A stretch of DNA of 64,000 nt from an uncultured Alphaproteobacteria bacterium (lineage in GTDB: Bacteria; Pseudomonadota; Alphaproteobacteria; Rs-D84), in NCBI GenBank assembly GCA_946623825.1, contig CAMORN010000001.1:80202-144201 (forward strand), given 5' to 3'. Positions 46,827-57,569 of the stretch are shown in pieces. The notes below the pieces were generated by a model. It was given only the letters and a program-made list of their open reading frames with translations, was not told the DNA's origin and made no database searches. Numbering within the stretch: the stretch's first letter is position 1; each line of letters opens with the position of its first letter. The translations under genes were made by a program, and so were the position numbers.

Positions 46827-46916
46827 GGATGGGTGGCAGAGCGGTCGAATGCGACGGTCTTGAAAACCGCTGAAGTCGCAAGGCTTCCGGGGGTTCGAAT
46901 CCCTCCCCATCCGCCA
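46827..46916 (+). tRNA. tRNA-Ser (anticodon TGA)
   Basis: 90 bases, class II with a long variable arm. Acceptor GGATGGG pairs with CCCATCC; anticodon loop CTTGAAA gives TGA; variable arm GAAGTCGCAAGGCTTC; T arm GGGGGTTCGAATCCCTC; discriminator G and encoded CCA. The last 14 bases recur at 47073-47086. Confidence 0.96.
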
Positions 46917-48438: not shown

Positions 48439-48636
48439 TTAATGAGACAATGGGATTGTGCTGATTTGACGACCGTGTTCATCAAACACATATACCCAAT
48501 TACCACCGCGTGTTACGGAAACGGTTGAACCCGTGAATCCGTATAATTGTCCCGCGATAGTTGTTATTTGACGACCGGATTCGTCATAGACGTAAACCCA
48601 ATTGCTGCCTCTTTGTACTGCTGTTCCAATAGACAT
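48439..48636 (-). CDS. 65-aa protein made of two tandem NWVYVxDExGRQI repeats
   Basis: Not recognised as a named family. The ATG at 48636 follows AAAAGGAAAAAGCC and lies about 50 bases from the -10 of its promoter. Two near-identical units, RGSNWVYVYDESGRQITTI and RGGNWVYVFDEHGRQISTI, are separated by 15 residues (GQLYGFTGSTVSV). Each reads as a beta-hairpin with a DExGR turn, as in sheet-forming or ligand-binding repeats. Cytoplasmic (no signal). Its promoter carries the AGAC-N7-GTCT element shared with three other transcription units. Confidence 0.75.
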   Translation of the reverse strand: MSIGTAVQRGSNWVYVYDESGRQITTIAGQLYGFTGSTVSVTRGGNWVYVFDEHGRQISTIPLSH

Positions 48637-48689: not shown

Positions 48690-48729
48690 ATAATAATATA
48701 AAACATGAATCAGACAAAAATGGTCTTGT
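48690..48729 (-). promoter_or_regulatory. Shared promoter/operator element, copy 1 (65-aa gene)
   Basis: On the minus strand ACAAGACCATTTTTGTCTGA (48710-48729) contains AGAC-N7-GTCT. Its TTGTCT serves as -35 and is followed after exactly 16 bp by TATTAT (48690-48695). Confidence 0.75.
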
Positions 48730-48759
48730 ATAAATTAAAACGCTCGAAAAATGTTTTTT

Positions 48760-50526
48760 TTATTCGCTGATGAATCCGCCAGATTGCATTTTCCACAATT
48801 TTGCATATACACCGTTTTTGCGCAATAATGCGGAATGCGTTCCTGTTTCTACGATTTTACCGCCGTCCAATACAATTAATTTATCCATATTGCGTAATGT
48901 AGATAAACGGTGGGCGATAACCAATGTTGTTTTGTTCTTGGATAATTTTGCAAAAGATTTTTGGATAACAGATTCTGTTTCACTGTCCAATGCAGAAGTT
49001 GCTTCGTCTAGTATCAATATAGGTGCGTTTTTCAAGAATGCACGTGCGATAGCGATTCTTTGCCTCTGTCCCCCAGATAATTTTATTCCGCGGTCGCCAA
49101 CAAAAGATTCGTATTTGTTTGGTGTTGATAAAATAAATTTATCAGCAGACGCGTTTTTTGCAGCGGTTTTAATTTCTGAATCTGTCGCGTTTAATTTTCC
49201 ATATTTTATATTTTCACGAATTGTTCGGTTGAACATGGTTGAATCTTGTGGAATAAAACCAATGTTTTCGTGTAAAGATTTTTGAGTTATTGTGCGAATA
49301 TCTGTTCCGTCTATCAAAATAGAACCATTTGTTGGGTCATATAAACGCATAATCAAATTGACCAAAGTTGTTTTGCCCGCACCAGATAAACCAACAATAC
49401 CGACTTTTTCACCCGAATTTATTGTGAAATTCAAATTTTTCAGAACCATATCTTTGTTGTATTTAAAACTTAAATCTTTGATTTCAATTATTGCTTTTTT
49501 GATTTTTAGGTTTTTTGCACCGTCAATATCTGTGATAGATATCGGTTGAATTAAGGTGTCATATGAACCAATTGCCTTGCCCAATTTTTCAATAAAGTTT
49601 TTGATTTCCATTATCAAACTGAATGATACAGCACTGATTCCTGTGAAAATACTAAGCGCAAAAGAAATGTCTGCGATTGTTGATTGACCCGTTGAATACA
49701 TATAACCACAAACCAATATCAAAGCAGTCATTCCAAACGCGTCCATTGCGAAATTACCCGGTCCCCAAAAGAATCTCGATATTGCATGTCCGGTGCGTGC
49801 AGTCTTTTCATAATCACGACGGAAAGGTTCTGCACATTTTTGTTCATATTCAGAATGTGCGAAAGTTTTAACGGCTATGAAATTTGATAATGCGTCCAAC
49901 AGGCGTCCATGCAACATATTGAATTTTTGTGATGCTTTTGCAGATGCTTTTAGTGTGCTTTTAACCCGATATATTCCCCATAATATACGCGCCAATGCCG
50001 CAATTATAATAACCACCAGATATTGCCAACCAATTACAAATAAACCACCGATTGCCAATAAAAATGCGCCAAGCACCGCCAATAAATTCCCAAACACCGC
50101 ACCAATCATTTCATAAAAACCAGTGGCAACACCGTCTATTTGCGAATTTATTTTCCCCGGCATGGAATTGGCATAAAAATCAATACTCTGTTTATATACA
50201 TATTCGTATAAATCGCGTGAAATATGATTGTAAGAACGATATTTAATTGTGTTATCAAAAACAACCCAACGCATAATTGCGCCACCAACCAATATCGAAC
50301 GCAACATTAAATAACCAACAGCAATAGGGACTATTTTATCAAACCCAAGCGATATAGGATTGTTTTCCAATGTAGCGACTATCATTTTAATAAAGAAAGC
50401 CGGTATAACCGTATGACCTGCTGTATCAAATATTGAAAATAATGTGAATACAAAAGGCCATCCTTTCGCATAACGAAATAAATTCTTAAAATAAAAAGAT
50501 AAAACTGATTTTGGGAATTTCATCAT
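48760..50526 (-). CDS. MsbA-like ABC exporter (fused membrane and ATPase domains)
   Basis: 588 aa. Six membrane helices in the first ~320 residues, then an ATPase domain with Walker A GLSGAGKTT near 376, signature LSGGQRQRIA near 483 and Walker B ILILDEATSALD near 500, plus the H-loop IAHRLST. Homodimeric exporters of this type move lipids, drugs or peptides. The start (ATG ATG at 50526) has no ribosome site; a TTTATGATATAAT block lies seven bases upstream, and the shared promoter element lies about 40-75 bases upstream. It is the only transporter in the regulon, so its cargo may be linked to the neighbouring small proteins. Confidence 0.9.
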   Translation of the reverse strand: MMKFPKSVLSFYFKNLFRYAKGWPFVFTLFSIFDTAGHTVIPAFFIKMIVATLENNPISLGFDKIVPIAVGYLMLRSILVGGAIMRWVVFDNTIKYRSYNHISRDLYEYVYKQSIDFYANSMPGKINSQIDGVATGFYEMIGAVFGNLLAVLGAFLLAIGGLFVIGWQYLVVIIIAALARILWGIYRVKSTLKASAKASQKFNMLHGRLLDALSNFIAVKTFAHSEYEQKCAEPFRRDYEKTARTGHAISRFFWGPGNFAMDAFGMTALILVCGYMYSTGQSTIADISFALSIFTGISAVSFSLIMEIKNFIEKLGKAIGSYDTLIQPISITDIDGAKNLKIKKAIIEIKDLSFKYNKDMVLKNLNFTINSGEKVGIVGLSGAGKTTLVNLIMRLYDPTNGSILIDGTDIRTITQKSLHENIGFIPQDSTMFNRTIRENIKYGKLNATDSEIKTAAKNASADKFILSTPNKYESFVGDRGIKLSGGQRQRIAIARAFLKNAPILILDEATSALDSETESVIQKSFAKLSKNKTTLVIAHRLSTLRNMDKLIVLDGGKIVETGTHSALLRKNGVYAKLWKMQSGGFISE

Positions 50527-50562
50527 AGGAATAATTATATCATAAAGATATTATTATTCCAA

Positions 50563-50602
50563 ATTATAAAACTGAATTTTAACCAGACAAAAATGGTCTT
50601 GT
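50563..50602 (-). promoter_or_regulatory. Shared promoter/operator element, copy 2 (ABC exporter)
   Basis: On the minus strand ACAAGACCATTTTTGTCTGG (50583-50602). The -35 TTGTCT is followed after 16 bp by TATAAT (50563-50568). Confidence 0.75.
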
Positions 50603-50688
50603 GTAATCGTGGAAACATATTTTTTTATTGATTTGTATGTATGAAAATAAAAAATTAAATATAAATAAATTTTTATAAAAAAGGTGAA

Positions 50689-51942
50689 GTGATGAAAATT
50701 TGTATTTATAGAGGAACAAATGAAATAGGTGGAAATTGTATAGAATTATCAAGCAATAAAACGCGTATATTATTGGATGCGGGAATACCGTTGATTTCAA
50801 TGGAACAGAAAGATGTTCCAATCAGCGAATATAAAGTGCCTGTTGTCGGATTGTATGAAAACGAAACACCAACTGTGAATGCAATATTTATAACGCATTG
50901 TCATCCCGACCATTATGGGTTATTGCCGTTGGTGAATAAAAAAATACCTGTTTACATGTCAAAAACATTACATAAAATTTTGACCGAGATTCAACCTTTG
51001 TTGCCGGGTGGTTTTGATATATCGCATCTTGATATTCGTGATATAGACGCAGATGAATCTGTGAAAATTGGTAATATGACAATAACTGCGCGTGCGGTTG
51101 ATCATGCACCGTCTGCATATGCTTACGAAATAGATGATGGTAAAAAACGTGTCGTTTATACAGGTGATATTCGTTTCCATTCAAACCAACGTATGAAATC
51201 GTGGGCATTGGCACGCAAATCTAAAAATCCAGATTATTTGATTATGGAAGGAACGCGTCTTTCCCGTCCGGAATTAACAGAAAAATATCCAACCGAAGAA
51301 TCTGTGTCGCGTGGTATAACCGATTTAATTAAAGATTCTGGCAAGGTGACTTTTATAACAATGTCTTCGCAAAATATGGACCGTGTTGTTTCTGTTATCA
51401 AGGCGTGTAACAAGGCAAAAAAGACATTTGTTATTGACCCTTATACCGCTTCTTTGTTTGATATCTATCATGAATTATCACCAAAATTTCCGTTGTTGAA
51501 AGATTTAGATAACGTGCGAATTTATTTTGGTATGTCTGATGGTATTGTGGAACGTATGAAAAAATCAGGTTTGTTTTATAAACACAAATCTAAAAAAATT
51601 ACTGCAAAAGAAATTGCACAAAATCCAGATAGATATCTTATTAAAAACAACTTGAATTTGACGAGATATCTATTGAATAATATTGTCAAAGATTATGATT
51701 TTATTTATTCTATGTGGCATGGTTATTTAACAAGACAGCATACATGGGATAAATTCAAGAATCATATCATTGAAATTCATACATCTGGGCATGCTGCGAT
51801 AAAAGATTTGCAGAAATTTGTAAAACAGATAGATGCAAAAAACTTGATTCCAGTTCACACAGAATGCAAAAATGATTATGAAAAAATATTTGGCATAAAA
51901 AACATTATTGTTTTAGACGATAATGAACAGAAAAGGCTTTAA
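50689..51942 (+). CDS. Metallo-beta-lactamase-fold hydrolase, RNase J-like
   Basis: 417 aa. NEIGGNCIEL at the start, the metal motif THCHPDHYGLLPLV (HxHxDH near 68-73), YTGDIRFH near 157 and the C-terminal IHTSGHAAIKDLQKFV plus LIPVHTE near 364-392 follow the RNase J order, including the beta-CASP-like His motifs. At 417 aa it is well short of true RNase J (about 550), lacking the C-terminal domain, so it is a paralogue. It is expected to act on RNA or DNA. It heads a four-gene operon with a nuclease-like protein and a WYL regulator. AGGTGAAGTG precedes the ATG. Confidence 0.8.
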   Translation: MMKICIYRGTNEIGGNCIELSSNKTRILLDAGIPLISMEQKDVPISEYKVPVVGLYENETPTVNAIFITHCHPDHYGLLPLVNKKIPVYMSKTLHKILTEIQPLLPGGFDISHLDIRDIDADESVKIGNMTITARAVDHAPSAYAYEIDDGKKRVVYTGDIRFHSNQRMKSWALARKSKNPDYLIMEGTRLSRPELTEKYPTEESVSRGITDLIKDSGKVTFITMSSQNMDRVVSVIKACNKAKKTFVIDPYTASLFDIYHELSPKFPLLKDLDNVRIYFGMSDGIVERMKKSGLFYKHKSKKITAKEIAQNPDRYLIKNNLNLTRYLLNNIVKDYDFIYSMWHGYLTRQHTWDKFKNHIIEIHTSGHAAIKDLQKFVKQIDAKNLIPVHTECKNDYEKIFGIKNIIVLDDNEQKRL

Positions 51943-51944
51943 TT

Positions 51945-52880
51945 ATGACTCGTGCTTTGAAACTAGATTTTTATAATGAATTTAAGAATGGTTGCTTCAC
52001 ACCTTTGATAGATATGTTGAATGTAAAAAATGGAAAATATAAATCAAGATTCATGATGAATTTGCGGGGAAATCGTGTAATTGTTTATTACAAGGGTGTT
52101 GTTGCGGTAACAATATATGATAAAACAAAACGAAATAAATCTTATGGGATTGAAGTGCAAAAAATGTATGAAACCGGGGATTCTAGCGGATACAGAAAGT
52201 TTTATAAATCAGAACAAGAATTATCCAGTTTTCATTGGGAACAATTTTTATCAAATATTGCAGATGGTATAGATGCGTATGATAAAAAAGATAATTCTGA
52301 AAAAGAAGTCCAACAAAGAATCTGGTATGAAAACAATGTGGCCAGAAACGCAAATTCAACAGATTATTTTATTGTTGATACAGAATACAAAGATAAAAAG
52401 GGTGGTCGTTTTGATTTAATCGCTTTTTATTGGCCGGCGGGTGAAAACAAACAGGGACACAAAGAAAAACCTAAAAAAATATCTGTTATAGAATTGAAAT
52501 TCGGTGATAATGCGGTTGGCGGTTCTTCTAATGAACAAACTGCAACATTATCTACGCATTTACAAGATTTCAAGAATTTTGGGTTTTCTGATGATTTCTT
52601 GAAAGATATGACATGTGTATTTTTTCAATTATATGATTTAGGTTTAATAAATATTAAATTTGGCAAAAAGGTAAGGGGTGTTGAAAATTTAATATCTTCA
52701 ACAGATGTAAAACAAATGATGTTTATATTGGCAAATTATAATCAAAAATCTAATAATCTCGCTAATCAACTGAATAAAATGAAAAAACAAATATTGCCAG
52801 ATGATAGAGAGGTTGTATTTGCAACTTCTTCATTTATGGGGTATGGTTTGTATGATGTTGGTATGAAACACGATTTATAA
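51945..52880 (+). CDS. PD-(D/E)XK nuclease-like protein
   Basis: 311 aa, not a family I can name. The central part has the PD-(D/E)XK pattern: a helical Glu in EVQQRIWYENNVAR near 125, GRFDLIAFYW near 155, then ISVIELKFGDNAVGG near 180-194 giving D...ExK. The N-terminal domain (about 1-100) looks like a beta sheet substrate module. It starts two bases after the RNase J-like stop, so the two proteins are made together. Confidence 0.65.
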   Translation: MTRALKLDFYNEFKNGCFTPLIDMLNVKNGKYKSRFMMNLRGNRVIVYYKGVVAVTIYDKTKRNKSYGIEVQKMYETGDSSGYRKFYKSEQELSSFHWEQFLSNIADGIDAYDKKDNSEKEVQQRIWYENNVARNANSTDYFIVDTEYKDKKGGRFDLIAFYWPAGENKQGHKEKPKKISVIELKFGDNAVGGSSNEQTATLSTHLQDFKNFGFSDDFLKDMTCVFFQLYDLGLINIKFGKKVRGVENLISSTDVKQMMFILANYNQKSNNLANQLNKMKKQILPDDREVVFATSSFMGYGLYDVGMKHDL

Positions 52881-52892
52881 AAAGAGGGCAAC

Positions 52893-53906
52893 ATGGCTAA
52901 AAAACAAAAAGGTTCAAGAGACGATTATGCTTTGTTTGGCAGTATGTTGGATGTGGCAAAAGCATTATCAAGACCAGGAAACGGAATCCCATATGAAGAA
53001 GTCATGGATATAATGTCTTGCTCTCATAAGAAAGCAGAACGCGTGGTTCAATTTTTTCAAAAAAGATACCCTTATAATTTTGAAGAACATCGTGATCCAA
53101 TGGTCCCACAAAAAAAATTATTTAAATTAGATGGTGCAGATTGTGTTCCATTAGATTATATAAATGATGCTGAAATGTTTGCATTAAATGGTTCTACTAA
53201 AAAAATTAAAGACGACGCGATAAAATTACCATTGGTTTCGTTGGAATATAAATTAAACAGATTACTTGAAAGAAGAAAAACAGTTGCCCAAATGAATGAT
53301 ATGGAAGGTATTTCTATGGGTGAAGCGGTTGTTTCTGGACCGCGTATTAAAAACAAAAACGATGACGAAATTTTAAGAAAATTGCGCAAGGCTATTTTAG
53401 AAAACAAGGTTATAAATTGTTCTTATTACAGTGTCAGCGATAAGAAAAAAAAGAAAATAACAGTATGCCCATTGGGAATATTGTGGGGAAATTGGAATAA
53501 TTATTTAGTGGTTCTTGAAAATGGCAAGACTGCGCAAAAGATTTTATCTAATATCAGTGATGTAAAAATCACAAACGAAGAATTCAGATCTGGTAATTTT
53601 TCAATAGATGAATATGCCAAGAAAAGTTTTGGTGCGTATCATACACCAAACGGTCCTTTTGATGTGGAATGGTATGTCAGCCCAGATGCAAAAGAGAGTG
53701 CTTTGAAATACGAATTTCACCCAGACCAAAAGGTAATACCACATACAGACGGTTCTTTGACAATTAAATTTAAAAGTGATGGTTGGCGCGAAATGTCTTG
53801 GTATTTATTCAGATGGAGTGGTGCTATCGTCCCAATCAAACCAAAAGCATTGGTTGACGAATACAAAAACATAATCAAAAAAATTTCTGATTCTGTTAAA
53901 TTGTAA
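52893..53906 (+). CDS. WYL-domain transcriptional regulator
   Basis: 337 aa. The N-terminal ~75 residues form a winged helix-like DNA-binding unit (ALSRPGNGIPYEEVMDIMSC, KKAERVVQFFQKRYPY). The WYL domain spans about 155-225 (AILENKVINCSYYSVSDKKK, CPLGILWGNWNNYLVVL), and a WCX-like C-terminal module follows (FDVEWYVSPDAKESA, LTIKFKSDGWREMSWYLFRWSG). WYL proteins sense ligands, often nucleic acid, and control many phage-defence loci. Third in the operon (12-base gap). It is the natural candidate to bind the AGAC-N7-GTCT elements nearby. Confidence 0.88.
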   Translation: MAKKQKGSRDDYALFGSMLDVAKALSRPGNGIPYEEVMDIMSCSHKKAERVVQFFQKRYPYNFEEHRDPMVPQKKLFKLDGADCVPLDYINDAEMFALNGSTKKIKDDAIKLPLVSLEYKLNRLLERRKTVAQMNDMEGISMGEAVVSGPRIKNKNDDEILRKLRKAILENKVINCSYYSVSDKKKKKITVCPLGILWGNWNNYLVVLENGKTAQKILSNISDVKITNEEFRSGNFSIDEYAKKSFGAYHTPNGPFDVEWYVSPDAKESALKYEFHPDQKVIPHTDGSLTIKFKSDGWREMSWYLFRWSGAIVPIKPKALVDEYKNIIKKISDSVKL

Positions 53907-53922
53907 AATATAGGAAATTGAA

Positions 53923-54675
53923 ATGTCTTTGAATCAAAAAATAAAATCGCAAATATTGAATTTTATTAAACAACCAATTCCACAAGATATAGATATTGTA
54001 AAAAAATCTATACCTGTACCTTTTTTTGGAAATATTGAAAAAGCACGTGTGGCAACCATTTCTATAAATCCATCTAATAAAGAATTTGAAGATAAAAATC
54101 ATAAAACTTTGATTAAATCTAAAAAAAGATTTTCAGACAGAGAGATTTTAAATGCGACAGACAATGATGTTTTAAATGACGAGCAAAGATTGACAGTTTT
54201 TGATTCTTTGATAAATTATTTTAATCAAAAAAATAATAATTATTATCACCCATATAAAACATGGTTTAATTGGCTTGACAGATATGTAGGTGATATGTTT
54301 GGTTGTTCTTATTATGACGGGACAATGGTAAATTTAGACATTTATCCATGGGCGACAGCAATTAAATGGGGTAATATAGACCCAAAAACAAAAGATAATA
54401 TATTAAAACAATATAGTTTATTAAAAGACATATTGTTGGATAAAGAGGCTTTGTTTGATTATGTTTATATAAATGGCGCAACTGTAAAGAACCAGATAGA
54501 AAAATATCTTGGGGTTACAATTCCAGAATATAGTTGCGGTCAATTATCTATATATAATTACAAAATGCCAAATGGAATTATTCTTGTCGGTTCCAGTTGT
54601 TATATACAAAATTCTCATAAGACAAGTGAAGAATTAAAAAATCTTCATGCAATAATAAAATCAAGCATCAAATAA
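53923..54675 (+). CDS. Uracil-DNA-glycosylase-superfamily-like protein
   Basis: 250 aa. PVPFFGNIEKARVATISINPSNKEF near 30-57 matches the first strand and loop of uracil-DNA-glycosylase-fold proteins (GxNPS). LDIYPWATAIKWG near 140 and IILVGSSCYIQNSH near 225-238 fit the later strands, the last carrying a His at the position of the catalytic HPSP loop. Activity on uracil is not implied; the superfamily includes several divergent proteins. Last of the four-gene operon (16-base gap after the WYL gene). Confidence 0.6.
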   Translation: MSLNQKIKSQILNFIKQPIPQDIDIVKKSIPVPFFGNIEKARVATISINPSNKEFEDKNHKTLIKSKKRFSDREILNATDNDVLNDEQRLTVFDSLINYFNQKNNNYYHPYKTWFNWLDRYVGDMFGCSYYDGTMVNLDIYPWATAIKWGNIDPKTKDNILKQYSLLKDILLDKEALFDYVYINGATVKNQIEKYLGVTIPEYSCGQLSIYNYKMPNGIILVGSSCYIQNSHKTSEELKNLHAIIKSSIK

Positions 54676-54725
54676 AATACAACCCCTTTGCGGATTTTTT
54701 ATTCATTTTAAAATATTAATTTTAT

Positions 54726-54765
54726 ACAAGACCATTTTTGTCTGGTATATGTTTTATATTATAAA
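54726..54765 (+). promoter_or_regulatory. Shared promoter/operator element, copy 3 (131-aa gene)
   Basis: ACAAGACCATTTTTGTCTGG (54726-54745). The -35 TTGTCT (54738-54743) is followed after 16 bp by TATAAA (54760-54765). Confidence 0.75.
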
Positions 54766-54802
54766 TATAGAAAATAAAAAACAACAACCAAAGGGGTAAA
54801 AA

Positions 54803-55198
54803 ATGAAACAATACACATACGAAGAAAACAAAAAAATTGCATCTATACGTCATAGCAATACAAAATATGATAAATATGATGTTTTTTATCATGTCTTTCT
54901 GGGTGAAAGAAAAAAATTAAATTGGAATTGTGCGCAATTTAATAATTCAGAAATGGATTTATTTGATTTTGTATCTGCAACAAATCAAATTGAATCTGAT
55001 GTGAATTTGTACAGACGCGCAAACCAAAAAAAGTTTATTGAAAAAAGTATCATCGATTTACGCGAAATTTATCCAGATGAAAGTAAAAATTTTCTTAAAA
55101 ATATAGCGCATAAAATGTTGAAAAAAACATTGCAAACACAAGAAAAAAGAAATCTGGCGCGCGTAAAACCTTGCAGACTATATTTTCAAGAAGACTAA
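54803..55198 (+). CDS. Hypothetical 131-aa protein of the shared-promoter regulon
   Basis: Not recognised. AAAGGGGTAAAAA precedes the ATG. Soluble, strongly basic, largely helical (RRANQKKFIEKSIIDLREIYPDE, KMLKKTLQTQEKRNLARVK); the basic end suggests nucleic acid or ribosome contact. It has its own copy of the AGAC-N7-GTCT promoter, and the next copy follows immediately after its stop. Confidence 0.7.
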   Translation: MKQYTYEENKKIASIRHSNTKYDKYDVFYHVFLGERKKLNWNCAQFNNSEMDLFDFVSATNQIESDVNLYRRANQKKFIEKSIIDLREIYPDESKNFLKNIAHKMLKKTLQTQEKRNLARVKPCRLYFQED

Positions 55199-55207
55199 AT
55201 ATTATAT

Positions 55208-55247
55208 ACAAGACCGTTTTTGTCTGGTTGTGTATATATAATATAAA
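55208..55247 (+). promoter_or_regulatory. Shared promoter/operator element, copy 4 (53-aa gene and AAA+ ATPase)
   Basis: ACAAGACCGTTTTTGTCTGG (55208-55227), one base different from copies 2 and 3. The -35 TTGTCT (55220-55225) is followed after 16 bp by TATAAA (55242-55247). Confidence 0.75.
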
Positions 55248-55272: not shown

Positions 55273-55434
55273 ATGCCAAGATATACTTTTCAATGGGACG
55301 GTTCTGATGTCGTTATTTACACTTTGCCAAGTCGTAATTATTGGCGTCGTGTAAAGTGGGCAAAAGATGCCTATCATGACGGAAAAGCAATTGTCGTTAT
55401 TGGTAATTGCAACGAAGTCATAAGATTTGAATAA
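55273..55434 (+). CDS. 53-aa protein upstream of the AAA+ ATPase
   Basis: Not recognised. AAAAGGGGTAGAT precedes the ATG at 55273, and the AAA+ gene starts 23 bases after the stop, so they form one unit. Sequence features: YTFQWDGSDVVIYTLPS, an aromatic/basic segment (RNYWRRVKWAKDAYHDG) and a beta-like end (AIVVIGNCNEVIRF). A small adaptor, substrate or toxin-like partner of the ATPase is possible; none is shown. Confidence 0.65.
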   Translation: MPRYTFQWDGSDVVIYTLPSRNYWRRVKWAKDAYHDGKAIVVIGNCNEVIRFE

Positions 55435-55457: not shown

Positions 55458-57569
55458 ATGAACTTACGCGAAAAACAAATTTTTGGGTATTATCTCAAAA
55501 ACATTTTGGCATCAGAATGTCAACCAGAAGACACAGACAGTTTTCTTAGTTTTATTTGGCGTTATTCTGATGATGTTTTTGGAATTAATATGCGTCCTTT
55601 GATACGCAGAAGAAAAATGCAATCGTTCCATGATCATGATGATTCAGATTTATCGGAACTGGAACAAATGCGTTTGTTGCGTGGTATGGTCAATGGCGAA
55701 TTTATAAATTGTGGTTTGGTATCAGACGAAGCTGAAATCGCAAGAATTGAAAATATTGTCCATCAAAACAAAACAGATGTGTTTGATATTGACATAACAC
55801 AACACGATTTTGATAAAAGTTTTACTGTGATTTGTGACGCTTTTGATTTAGATGAAAAATCACGCCCATTATTACAATATTTTATGTATGCAACCAAGAT
55901 TTCCGCATTGCACAGAATGGTTGGTTTGTTTAACGACAGATTCAGTGATGGTTTGATGCATAATGATAATGTAGATGTTATGTCTGGATTTTCAAAAACA
56001 TCATTGGAAGATATTAAACAAATTTTATCTATCAATGGCCCATTGATGGATAAAGGAATTTTAACTTCCAGATATGGGGACAGGTCTTTCAGTGGTATGT
56101 TCAATAAATTGATTGGAACATATTTTGAATCTGTGCGTGAAGTGCAAAATTTCTTGGTTGGAAATCCGTTTGAAAGTGATTTAAACCGTGAAAATTTTGA
56201 TTATATTGCAAAAGATTATGACATAATCAGCAATATTCTGAAAAACGCGAAAGAAAAACAACAAAAGGGTGTAAACATATTATTATATGGTCATCCGGGC
56301 TGTGGCAAAACTGAATTGGCAAAATCTGTTTGTGTGTCGCAACATCTTGATTTATATACAACCCCTGAAAACAAAGAATCAAAAGATGAACGTTTAAGCA
56401 GTCTGTGTCAGGTGCAAACAATATTGAAAAAATCTGAAAACGGTGTCATTTTGTTTGATGAAGCCGAAGATGTTTTTTCGCTTAATCCGTTCAGCGCGCA
56501 TACGCCAAGTAAATTATTCTTGAATCGCAGATTGGAACAAAATATAACACCTGTGATATGGATAACAAACAATGTTCAATATATGGACCCTGCATACATT
56601 CGCAGATTTACCATCAGTATAGAAGTCCAAGACCCAGATATAAAAGCAAAAACAATTGCTTGGAAACGGGTTTTTGATAAACACGGTGTTGAAATATCTG
56701 ATGAAAAATTGGAAAAAATCGTCAAAAAATATGATGTACCAATTGCGTTGGTTGATACCGCAGTCAAAAATGTTAAATTGTTGAATGATCCAGATATGTT
56801 GGAATATACAATTGATAATCTGGTTAAAGCGACAACAGGTGTCAAACCAACAGACAAGAAAAAACAAGATGAAGTTAAATTTGAAACATCTTTGTTAAAT
56901 ACAGATGTTGATTTGAAAAATTTAGCAGACAAAATTAAAGAAAAAAATATGAAAAACTTTTCTTTATGTTTGTATGGTGCACCGGGGACTGGTAAATCTG
57001 CATATGCTAAATTTCTGGCAGAAATATTAGATATGCCGATTATTTCCAAAAAAGCCAGTGATATTAAATCAATGTGGGTTGGTGGTACAGAAAAAAATAT
57101 TGCGCGTGCATTCGCAGAAGCCAGAGAAAAGAAAGCATTGTTGATTTTTGACGAAGCAGATTCTTTCTTGTCTGACAGACGTGGTGCAAACGCATCATGG
57201 GAAGTTTCTGGTGTAAATGAAATGTTGACCCAAATGGAAAATGCAGAATACCCATTTGTTTGCACAACAAATTTAATGGATGGTTTAGATAAAGCCGCAT
57301 TGCGTCGTTTCTCGTTCAAGGTTAAATATGATTATATGACAACGACACAGGTTAAATCTGCATGTAAATTATTTTTAGATATAGATGTTTCTGAAAATGA
57401 AATTGCAAAATACAATAAATTGGCACCGGGTGATTTTGCCGTTGTAAAAAAACAGGCATCTTTGTTGGAAATAACAGACAAGGCCGAATTGTTGAAAATG
57501 TTGAAAACAGAACAAGATGCAAAAGACATAACCGCATCTGGTAATGTTAAAACAAAAATCGGTTTCTAG
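55458..57569 (+). CDS. Tandem AAA+ ATPase
   Basis: 703 aa. A helical N-terminal domain (about 1-250) is followed by two AAA+ modules. The first has Walker A GHPGCGKT near 278 and Walker B VILFDEAED near 330. The second has Walker A GAPGTGKS near 507, Walker B LLIFDEADSF near 562 and an arginine-finger-like ALRRF; the second resembles the SpoVK/FtsH classical clade. Likely a hexameric unfoldase or remodeller. No protease domain is fused. Under the shared promoter together with the 53-aa protein, after an ACAGGGGTC ribosome site. Confidence 0.85.
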   Translation: MNLREKQIFGYYLKNILASECQPEDTDSFLSFIWRYSDDVFGINMRPLIRRRKMQSFHDHDDSDLSELEQMRLLRGMVNGEFINCGLVSDEAEIARIENIVHQNKTDVFDIDITQHDFDKSFTVICDAFDLDEKSRPLLQYFMYATKISALHRMVGLFNDRFSDGLMHNDNVDVMSGFSKTSLEDIKQILSINGPLMDKGILTSRYGDRSFSGMFNKLIGTYFESVREVQNFLVGNPFESDLNRENFDYIAKDYDIISNILKNAKEKQQKGVNILLYGHPGCGKTELAKSVCVSQHLDLYTTPENKESKDERLSSLCQVQTILKKSENGVILFDEAEDVFSLNPFSAHTPSKLFLNRRLEQNITPVIWITNNVQYMDPAYIRRFTISIEVQDPDIKAKTIAWKRVFDKHGVEISDEKLEKIVKKYDVPIALVDTAVKNVKLLNDPDMLEYTIDNLVKATTGVKPTDKKKQDEVKFETSLLNTDVDLKNLADKIKEKNMKNFSLCLYGAPGTGKSAYAKFLAEILDMPIISKKASDIKSMWVGGTEKNIARAFAEAREKKALLIFDEADSFLSDRRGANASWEVSGVNEMLTQMENAEYPFVCTTNLMDGLDKAALRRFSFKVKYDYMTTTQVKSACKLFLDIDVSENEIAKYNKLAPGDFAVVKKQASLLEITDKAELLKMLKTEQDAKDITASGNVKTKIGF

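Follow-up and report, generated by a model that had tools for sequence, protein, structure and literature searches.

Four copies of a 20-bp inverted-repeat element lie in a stretch of 64,000 nucleotides (the window) from an uncultured alphaproteobacterium, grouped around a gene for a WYL-domain regulator (52893-53906). We propose that the element is probably the operator of this WYL protein, a transcription factor of the DriD type, and that its targets belong to a LexA-independent damage response of the DriD kind. DriD of Caulobacter crescentus is a WYL activator of the DNA damage response that binds single-stranded DNA (ssDNA) and recognises GAC-N7-GTC (extract of PMC12340889). The four copies look like operators of one regulon, which is dispersed in relatives of the source organism.

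The element and its association with WYL genes

The sequence ACAAGACC(A/G)TTTTTGTCTG(G/A) occurs four times in the window without a mismatch, at exactly the positions and on the strands at which an earlier note on this DNA had placed four shared inverted repeats. The copies are listed here with their candidate -10 hexamers; the DriD register, explained below, places the -10 12 nt after the GTC of the box, and proteins are sized in amino acids (aa).

48710-48729, minus strand: box 1, core GACCATTTTTGTC at 48713-48725, upstream of the 65-aa gene; TATATT at 48695-48700 in the DriD register, farther TATTAT at 48690-48695
50583-50602, minus strand: box 2, core at 50586-50598, upstream of the ABC exporter gene; AGTTTT at 50568-50573 in the DriD register, perfect TATAAT at 50563-50568, 16 bp past TTGTCT
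54726-54745, plus strand: box 3, core at 54730-54742, upstream of the 131-aa gene; TATATT at 54755-54760 in the DriD register, TATAAA at 54760-54765
55208-55227, plus strand: box 4, core at 55212-55224, upstream of the 53-aa/AAA+ unit; TATAAT at 55237-55242 in the DriD register, TATAAA at 55242-55247

Shuffled versions of the window contained a mean of 0.02 matches at up to three mismatches, and none of 100 shuffles reached four. A search of the whole source assembly (G000; 933,390 bases in 16 contigs, 75.66% complete), as the earlier note had suggested, recovered the four exact copies, all inside the window, and no further copy at up to two mismatches. The fifth match has three mismatches, a level at which the reversed control pattern also gives three matches. 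No other good copy exists in the 933-kb assembly, and the four in the window stand far above chance. Many copies in unrelated coding contexts, which the note had named as an argument against a regulon, do not occur for the 20-bp element in this assembly.

Among 148 genomes searched at up to two mismatches, one other genome, G001 of the same genus, carries the same cluster; single matches were found in five others, compared with six matches to the reversed control pattern. G001 has five copies with 0 to 3 mismatches, four of them at the same genes as in the window, while the fifth fronts an FtsK-like gene (FtsK_SpoIIIE, 7.1e-32) that replaces the 250-aa gene behind the WYL gene. Around it the two genomes share eight neighbouring proteins at 88-100% identity. 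Because the WYL proteins share only 52% identity and the following gene differs, the WYL gene and its follower (52893-54675 in the window, L044:11064-13080 in G001) look like an exchanged cassette in an otherwise conserved locus.

The association of box and WYL gene was followed in 141 sampled genomes of the genus. Each of these assemblies represents a single species and all of them are related, so that the counts are not independent. Single-protein and profile searches detected a WYL homologue in 31 of them. The core GACC[AG][AT]TTTTGTC, searched without mismatch, has 89 sites in 43 of the 141 genomes: 67 sites in 23 of the 31 WYL-positive genomes and 22 sites in 20 of the 110 WYL-negative ones (Fisher p 1.1e-8 by genome). 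Since the reversed control pattern gives 36 sites, 7 in WYL-positive and 29 in WYL-negative genomes, the sites of WYL-negative genomes are at background and those of WYL-positive genomes about tenfold above it. The WYL-negative sites lie largely inside reading frames without a -10, so that for the core, across the genus, copies in unrelated coding contexts do occur, at the level of the reversed control.

Within the WYL-positive genomes 39 of the 67 core sites lie at most 15 kb from the WYL gene and 28 lie far off or on other contigs; a -10-like hexamer in register follows 31 of the former and 16 of the latter. The local regulon of the earlier note therefore holds as far as the shared, promoter-bound element and the 39 nearby sites are concerned, but the regulon is not only local. 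Boxes less than 400 bp upstream of a WYL gene all point away from it (15/15, in a scan filtered on box centre and hexamer that left out one C..G box of G174), often toward a divergent tandem AAA+ gene. In the window the WYL gene stands behind two genes that have no copy of the box in front.

An order-wide search of 201 genomes for box plus -10 at up to one mismatch found 81 sites, spread over 38 of them, versus 27 sites for the reversed control. Eight box-bearing genomes were then searched with the WYL profile and one was positive, G206, which is also the only positive among the five with an exact box-plus--10. G206, previously unexamined for WYL and chosen for its two exact box sites, has a WYL gene (3.2e-103), and one of the boxes lies 29 bp beyond the end of the profile match. 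No WYL gene was detected by profile in G223, G224 and G235, which carry 1-mismatch sites only. Co-occurrence and linkage with the box make the WYL protein a likely regulator, as the earlier note had supposed.

Promoter geometry and kinship to DriD

Hexamers at offsets 4 to 27, counted in nucleotides after GTC, were scored against TATAAT. Over all 89 sites the best match is at offset 12 (mean 3.91/6), followed by offset 17 (3.30/6). Hexamers with at least 5/6 matches stand at offset 12 in 31 of the 67 WYL-positive sites, compared with a mean of 1.73 sites over the 22 other offsets, i.e. 4 to 27 minus 12 and 17 (tail 3e-31). At a threshold of at least 4/6 the count is 47 of 67, where about 8 are expected from the other offsets, versus 3 of 22 sites in WYL-negative genomes (p 4e-6); these three are in G011, G037 and G152, and the G011 and G037 boxes precede a gene of the ~60-aa family to which the 65-aa protein belongs. 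At this same threshold 26 WYL-positive sites have a hexamer only at offset 12, 21 at both offsets and 10 only at offset 17.

The hexamers TATTAT, TATAAT, TATAAA and TATAAA do lie 16 bp past TTGTCT in the window, as the earlier note had described, and three of the four copies have a hexamer at either offset, the ABC exporter copy only at offset 17. Because the window alone fits both offsets, we chose the register from the relatives and from DriD. The relatives favour a -10 12 nt after GTC, which is 11 bp after TTGTCY and 5 bp nearer than previously placed, and make the 16-bp hexamer the weaker second peak. We have therefore set aside the 16-bp -10 as a general rule, since the offset counts favour 12; the ABC exporter copy alone depends on the farther hexamer. 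The idea that the dyad simply covers a TTGTCT -35 at 16 bp was not sustained, and the register matches the one that we derived for DriD. If the offset-12 -10 is used, the hexamer at -35 to -30 matches TTGACA at a mean of 0.69/6. The promoters would thus have a good TATAWT -10 without a usable -35, and the poor -35 points to activation.

A profile of 43 non-redundant sites reads GGACC[AG][AT]TTTTGTCC-N11-TATAWT; it was cut from 50 sites chosen for a -10, with the GACC-to-GTC core fixed by the search, and its columns outside box and -10 mostly carry little information. The AGAC-N7-GTCT dyad of the earlier note is present in the window, if short, but relatives mostly have GGAC-N7-GTCC, or CGAC-N7-GTCG.

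Compared with the sequences of solved structures, the WYL protein of the window matches DriD chains best (4.6e-29 and 6e-29), while PafC reaches only 0.7 and neither BrxR nor CapW gave a match at E<=10. The alignment to DriD covers residues 15-323 of 337 and runs through the winged helix-turn-helix, the helical bundle, WYL and WCX. Foldseek ranked the predicted model in the same way (DriD 3e-20, PafBC 3e-11, BrxR 8.5e-8, CapW 8e-7).

The DriD regulon comprises didA, bapE, recJ, dnaG and CCNA_03891/CCNA_01149, and promoter sequences are printed for the driD-divergent gene, ATACGACCGTTTCTGTCGCAA, and for didA, ATACGTCCGTTTCTGGCGCAT (extract of PMC12340889). Both sites lie 12 nt before a CAAxxT hexamer at the -12 position, a register derived here from the printed sequences and the text and not from a published figure. 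The driD-divergent core GACCGTTTCTGTC is identical to the box-4 core at 12/13 bases and to the commoner A form at 11/13, and the didA site agrees with it in the seven central bases; at bapE the consensus picks out no clear site (7/14). With their GAC-N7-GTC pattern and the guanines that DriD contacts, the boxes of the window and the genus agree with the published DriD half-sites (PMC12340889, as far as the extract goes). The published consensus leaves the bases between the half-sites free, but both here and in these two Caulobacter promoters they form a T-rich centre.

The two regulons have the WYL protein alignment, the GAC-N7-GTC box and the poor -35 in common, as well as, in relatives, a box facing the gene divergent from the WYL gene. 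They differ in their targets, which here are AAA+, ~60-aa, 131-aa, ABC exporter, FtsK-like, DUF2130 and metallo-beta-lactamase (MBL) genes. The -10 is good and AT-rich in the genus, whereas Caulobacter DriD promoters have a weak one; the regulon here is accessory (31/141 genomes), often linked to one locus and found in a genus in whose tested genomes LexA was not detected; the outer base pair is A..T, G..C or C..G; and the residues that contact RNA polymerase are not evidently kept.

The recognition-helix Arg (R50 in the window protein) is invariant in 16/16 aligned proteins and present in all 33 WYL genes. The residue before it is K, N, Q, Y or R in 20 of the 33 genes and E in 13; DriD has Glu at this place and a C..G outer pair. 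A GGAC..GTCC box accompanies 19 of the 20 non-E loci. In the 17 genomes with only the K/N/Q/Y/R type 42 of 52 core sites have a G..C outer pair, compared with none of 14 in the 11 genomes with only the E type (A..T 5, C..T 2, C..G 2, G..T 2, and G..G, T..T and T..C one each). G174 holds both kinds of WYL gene, each adjoining its own kind of box (CGAC..GTCG, GGAC..GTCC). Box and recognition helix appear to change together, a match that is suggestive and no independent proof because it is mainly one split of the family. We propose as a specificity rule that the residue before the invariant Arg corresponds to the outer base pair of the box.

Mechanism and alternative explanations

The WYL protein very probably acts through the box, to which it would bind. 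That it activates in the manner of DriD is likely by analogy, and the same analogy favours ssDNA or DNA damage as the signal, with somewhat less assurance. By homology, ssDNA from damage, stalled forks or phage replication would bind the WYL domain; the WYL dimer would contact the NGAC and GTCN half-sites, 7 bp apart and centred near -31, and span the place where sigma region 4 would sit. RNA polymerase could in this way be recruited to, or held at, promoters that lack a usable -35 but have a TATAWT -10 at a distance of 12 nt from GTC. The response, accessory and LexA-independent in the genus, would then supply the AAA+ unit, the exporter, the small proteins and further products of DNA-processing genes. 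With ssDNA as the trigger, the genes would be expected to switch on at DNA damage, at stalled replication and perhaps at phage attack. A role of the products in defence or DNA repair is a guess from family names.

Besides the family split behind the helix match, several observations weigh against this proposal. Regarding the protein, domain placement in the fold model is poor (predicted template-modelling score, pTM, 0.44; TM about 0.28), and the DriD residues that touch RNA polymerase differ at the aligned places in a loosely aligned loop (Gly18 to R, Ala20 to G, Arg120-122 to T/V/A, Pro125 to N; numbering inferred). As to the promoters, 20 of the 67 WYL-positive sites have no -10-like hexamer at offset 12, among the ABC exporter boxes those of G000, G001 and G178 have no good one, and poor ones follow the C..G boxes in G157 and G083 (TAACCT, GAGTAT); offset 17 is a real second peak (12/67 at no less than 5/6, tail 1e-7) and in the window fits as well as offset 12. 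The C..G box of G174 (locus L083) points at the WYL gene, unlike the arrangement at driD. The association has exceptions as well: 8 of the 31 WYL-positive genomes lack an exact core, one of the 31 (G032) is counted on a 40-residue fragment match, and six WYL-positive genomes have a ~60-aa gene without GAC-N7-GTC upstream. Finally, the profile found no WYL gene in the box-bearing G011, G037, G152 (these three previously negative) and G097, assemblies that are 79%, 78%, 94% and 72% complete, where incompleteness affects absences.

A WYL protein of the BrxR/CapW kind would instead be a repressor whose dimer blocks RNA polymerase until a signal arrives, with TTGTCY as a functional -35 at 16 bp from the farther -10. 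TTGTCY matches TTGACA at 4/6, a hexamer with 5 or 6 of 6 matches to TATAAT stands at this place in all four window copies, for the ABC exporter only there, and offset 17 is the second peak across the genus; the highest peak is nonetheless at offset 12, where 26 sites have their only hexamer. WYL repressors stand at many defence islands (extract of PMC9122601), and our WYL protein likewise lies beside DNA-processing and defence-like genes, but its closest kin by sequence and fold is DriD, BrxR and CapW being farther, and the 15/15 upstream boxes point away from the WYL gene. The BrxR operator, an 11-bp repeat with a 5-bp spacer just downstream of its own promoter, is also unlike the box (PMC9122601, as far as the extract goes): repeats of about 10-11 bp with a 5-bp spacer are not matched by 4-bp halves 7 bp apart, in a comparison made without a separate search for BrxR-type repeats. 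We set this repressor aside as first choice on the sequence and fold matches, and regard it as unlikely. Mixed control, i.e. DriD-type activation at most promoters with repression or modulation at the ABC exporter, where the box lies 5 bp (half a turn) farther from the -10, is possible, though we doubt it. The ABC boxes of G000, G001 and G178 lack the offset-12 hexamer, and a perfect TATAAT stands at offset 17 in the first two, but these are three related genes only, and their -10 could be of a weak activated kind, as in Caulobacter DriD promoters.

That the box belongs to another regulator, for instance a helix-turn-helix protein or alternative sigma factor, while the WYL gene merely travels along would explain the boxes without a detected WYL gene in G011, G037, G152 and G097. 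Linkage and co-occurrence, the DriD half-site match, the ordinary TATAWT -10 and the match of helix and box, with two kinds in the one genome G174, speak against it and make it very improbable. We give hardly any credit to the idea that the boxes arose by duplication of promoter pieces, or are repeats, and have no common regulator. Boxes 3 and 4 do lie within 63-nt stretches that are 76% alike, and box 1 lies within a 66-nt inverted match (82%) to box 3, but the sites precede unrelated genes, the box correlates with WYL, and the 43-site profile, with its core fixed by the search and its sites chosen for a -10, carries little information in most columns outside box and -10. A mobile repeat was rejected, since the likeness is of promoter size only.

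The DriD-type reading was also compared with two other damage systems. PafBC of Actinobacteria is a WYL activator of damage genes with an ssDNA trigger (extract of PMC11804915); it differs in being a heterodimer and is far in sequence (PafC E 0.7). The right half of the box resembles the RecA-NDp promoter motif of PafBC, TTGTCRGTG-N8-TANNNT, but with PafC at this distance such a promoter was rejected. The alphaproteobacterial LexA/SOS box, GTTC-N7-GTTC (extract of PMC4211646), also serves a damage regulon and also has two 4-bp halves 7 bp apart; its bases are different and its halves direct, whereas the box here is inverted. It was rejected as an identity for the box, LexA being below the cut-off in the genus genomes tested: none of 24 same-genus genomes has LexA over the curated cut-off (G020 has two weak partial matches). 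Outside the genus, LexA is over the cut-off in 10 of the 16 members of the order that were tested, and RecA was found in 23 of the 24 genus genomes. On this sample, LexA seems to have been lost from the genus and RecA retained.

The proposed regulon points to a way in which DNA damage may be sensed in a lineage where LexA is not detectable. The hosts are gut Alphaproteobacteria with genomes near 1 Mb, and the DriD operator and promoter geometry would be extended from a handful of Caulobacter promoters to some 47 candidates (about 8 by chance). We found no report of a DriD-type regulon outside Caulobacter in the literature searched, which is only part of the whole. More tentatively, the DriD-type WYL sensor might be a portable alarm in a genus that would have lost LexA, set on scattered accessory DNA-processing and possibly anti-phage genes, and a substitute for SOS that serves partly for immunity: the sensor would travel with a locus containing its AAA+ target, its half-site preference would shift with the recognition helix, and ssDNA would switch it.

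Regulon contents and the surrounding locus

The genes of the locus, with starts called mechanically, are as follows.

48442-48636, minus strand: 65-aa protein with two WVYVxDExGRQ repeats
48760-50526, minus strand: ABC exporter, 588 aa, ABC_membrane and ABC_tran
50692-51942, plus strand: MBL/RNase J-like hydrolase, 416 aa
51945-52880, plus strand: 311-aa protein with an FD-X(n)-IELKF stretch, seen by eye
52893-53906, plus strand: WYL-domain protein of 337 aa, nearest to DriD among solved structures; proposed regulator of the boxes
53923-54675, plus strand: 250-aa protein that follows the WYL gene
54803-55198, plus strand: 131-aa protein, IRHxxTxYD motif; relatives with a box of their own in G001, G035, G148, G178 and G196
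55273-55434, plus strand: 53-aa protein, 100% identical in G001
55458-57569, plus strand: tandem AAA+ ATPase, 703 aa, phrog_10401 match 6.6e-91; second module resembles IetA

Candidate damage- or infection-response genes among these are those for the ~60-aa repeat protein, the 131-aa protein with its DUF2293-like motif, the 53-aa protein and the tandem AAA+ ATPase. The ATPase may be of phage or defence origin, given its phrog_10401 match and the IetA models that match its second module. The 131-aa protein matches DUF2293 weakly (E 0.099, below the cut-off), and its predicted structure is too poor to use (predicted local distance difference test, pLDDT, 59). The 250-aa protein had no match in a Pfam search and the 311-aa protein none to a family above the cut-off; we take the FD-X(n)-IELKF stretch of the latter to be a possible PD-(D/E)XK motif.

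Frames downstream of the 89 core sites are most commonly AAA+-like (17), followed by 65-aa-like (10, two of them, in G011 and G037, from WYL-negative genomes), 131-aa-like (6) and ABC exporter-like (3). Other boxed genes encode FtsK-like ATPases (Pfam; G001, G148, G178), DUF2130 proteins (Pfam; G148, G178), an MBL hydrolase similar to that of the window and with its own box (G148), and a 101-103-aa family; the latter has an IRHxxTxYD-like motif in common with the 131-aa family, and both match DUF2293 weakly, below the cut-off. In G097, which belongs to another family, boxes adjoin AAA+ and MBL genes. The ~60-aa family is present in 18 of the 31 WYL-positive and 7 of the 110 WYL-negative genomes (p 1.9e-9), and GAC-N7-GTC precedes 14 of its 26 copies. 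McrBC, beside the G021 box (locus L103), was rejected as a target; what this box faces is a ~60-aa gene of the opposite strand.

A tRNA-Ser gene (46827-46916) lies close to that end of the locus which has the lower coordinates. In G001 (L044:4345-4727) the 5' part and 3' end of tRNA-Ser are partly duplicated, as at an integration site. Five loci (L081, L083, L085, L086 and L101) share a recurring run of genes near WYL, encoding a 234-238-aa protein, a 98-aa protein (absent from L101), an 80- or 68-aa protein and an MBL hydrolase, and ending in FtsK-like or ankyrin-type genes. Ankyrin-like repeat segments, seen by eye, adjoin WYL in L081, L085 and L104, either alone or fused to FtsK-like or nuclease-like domains.

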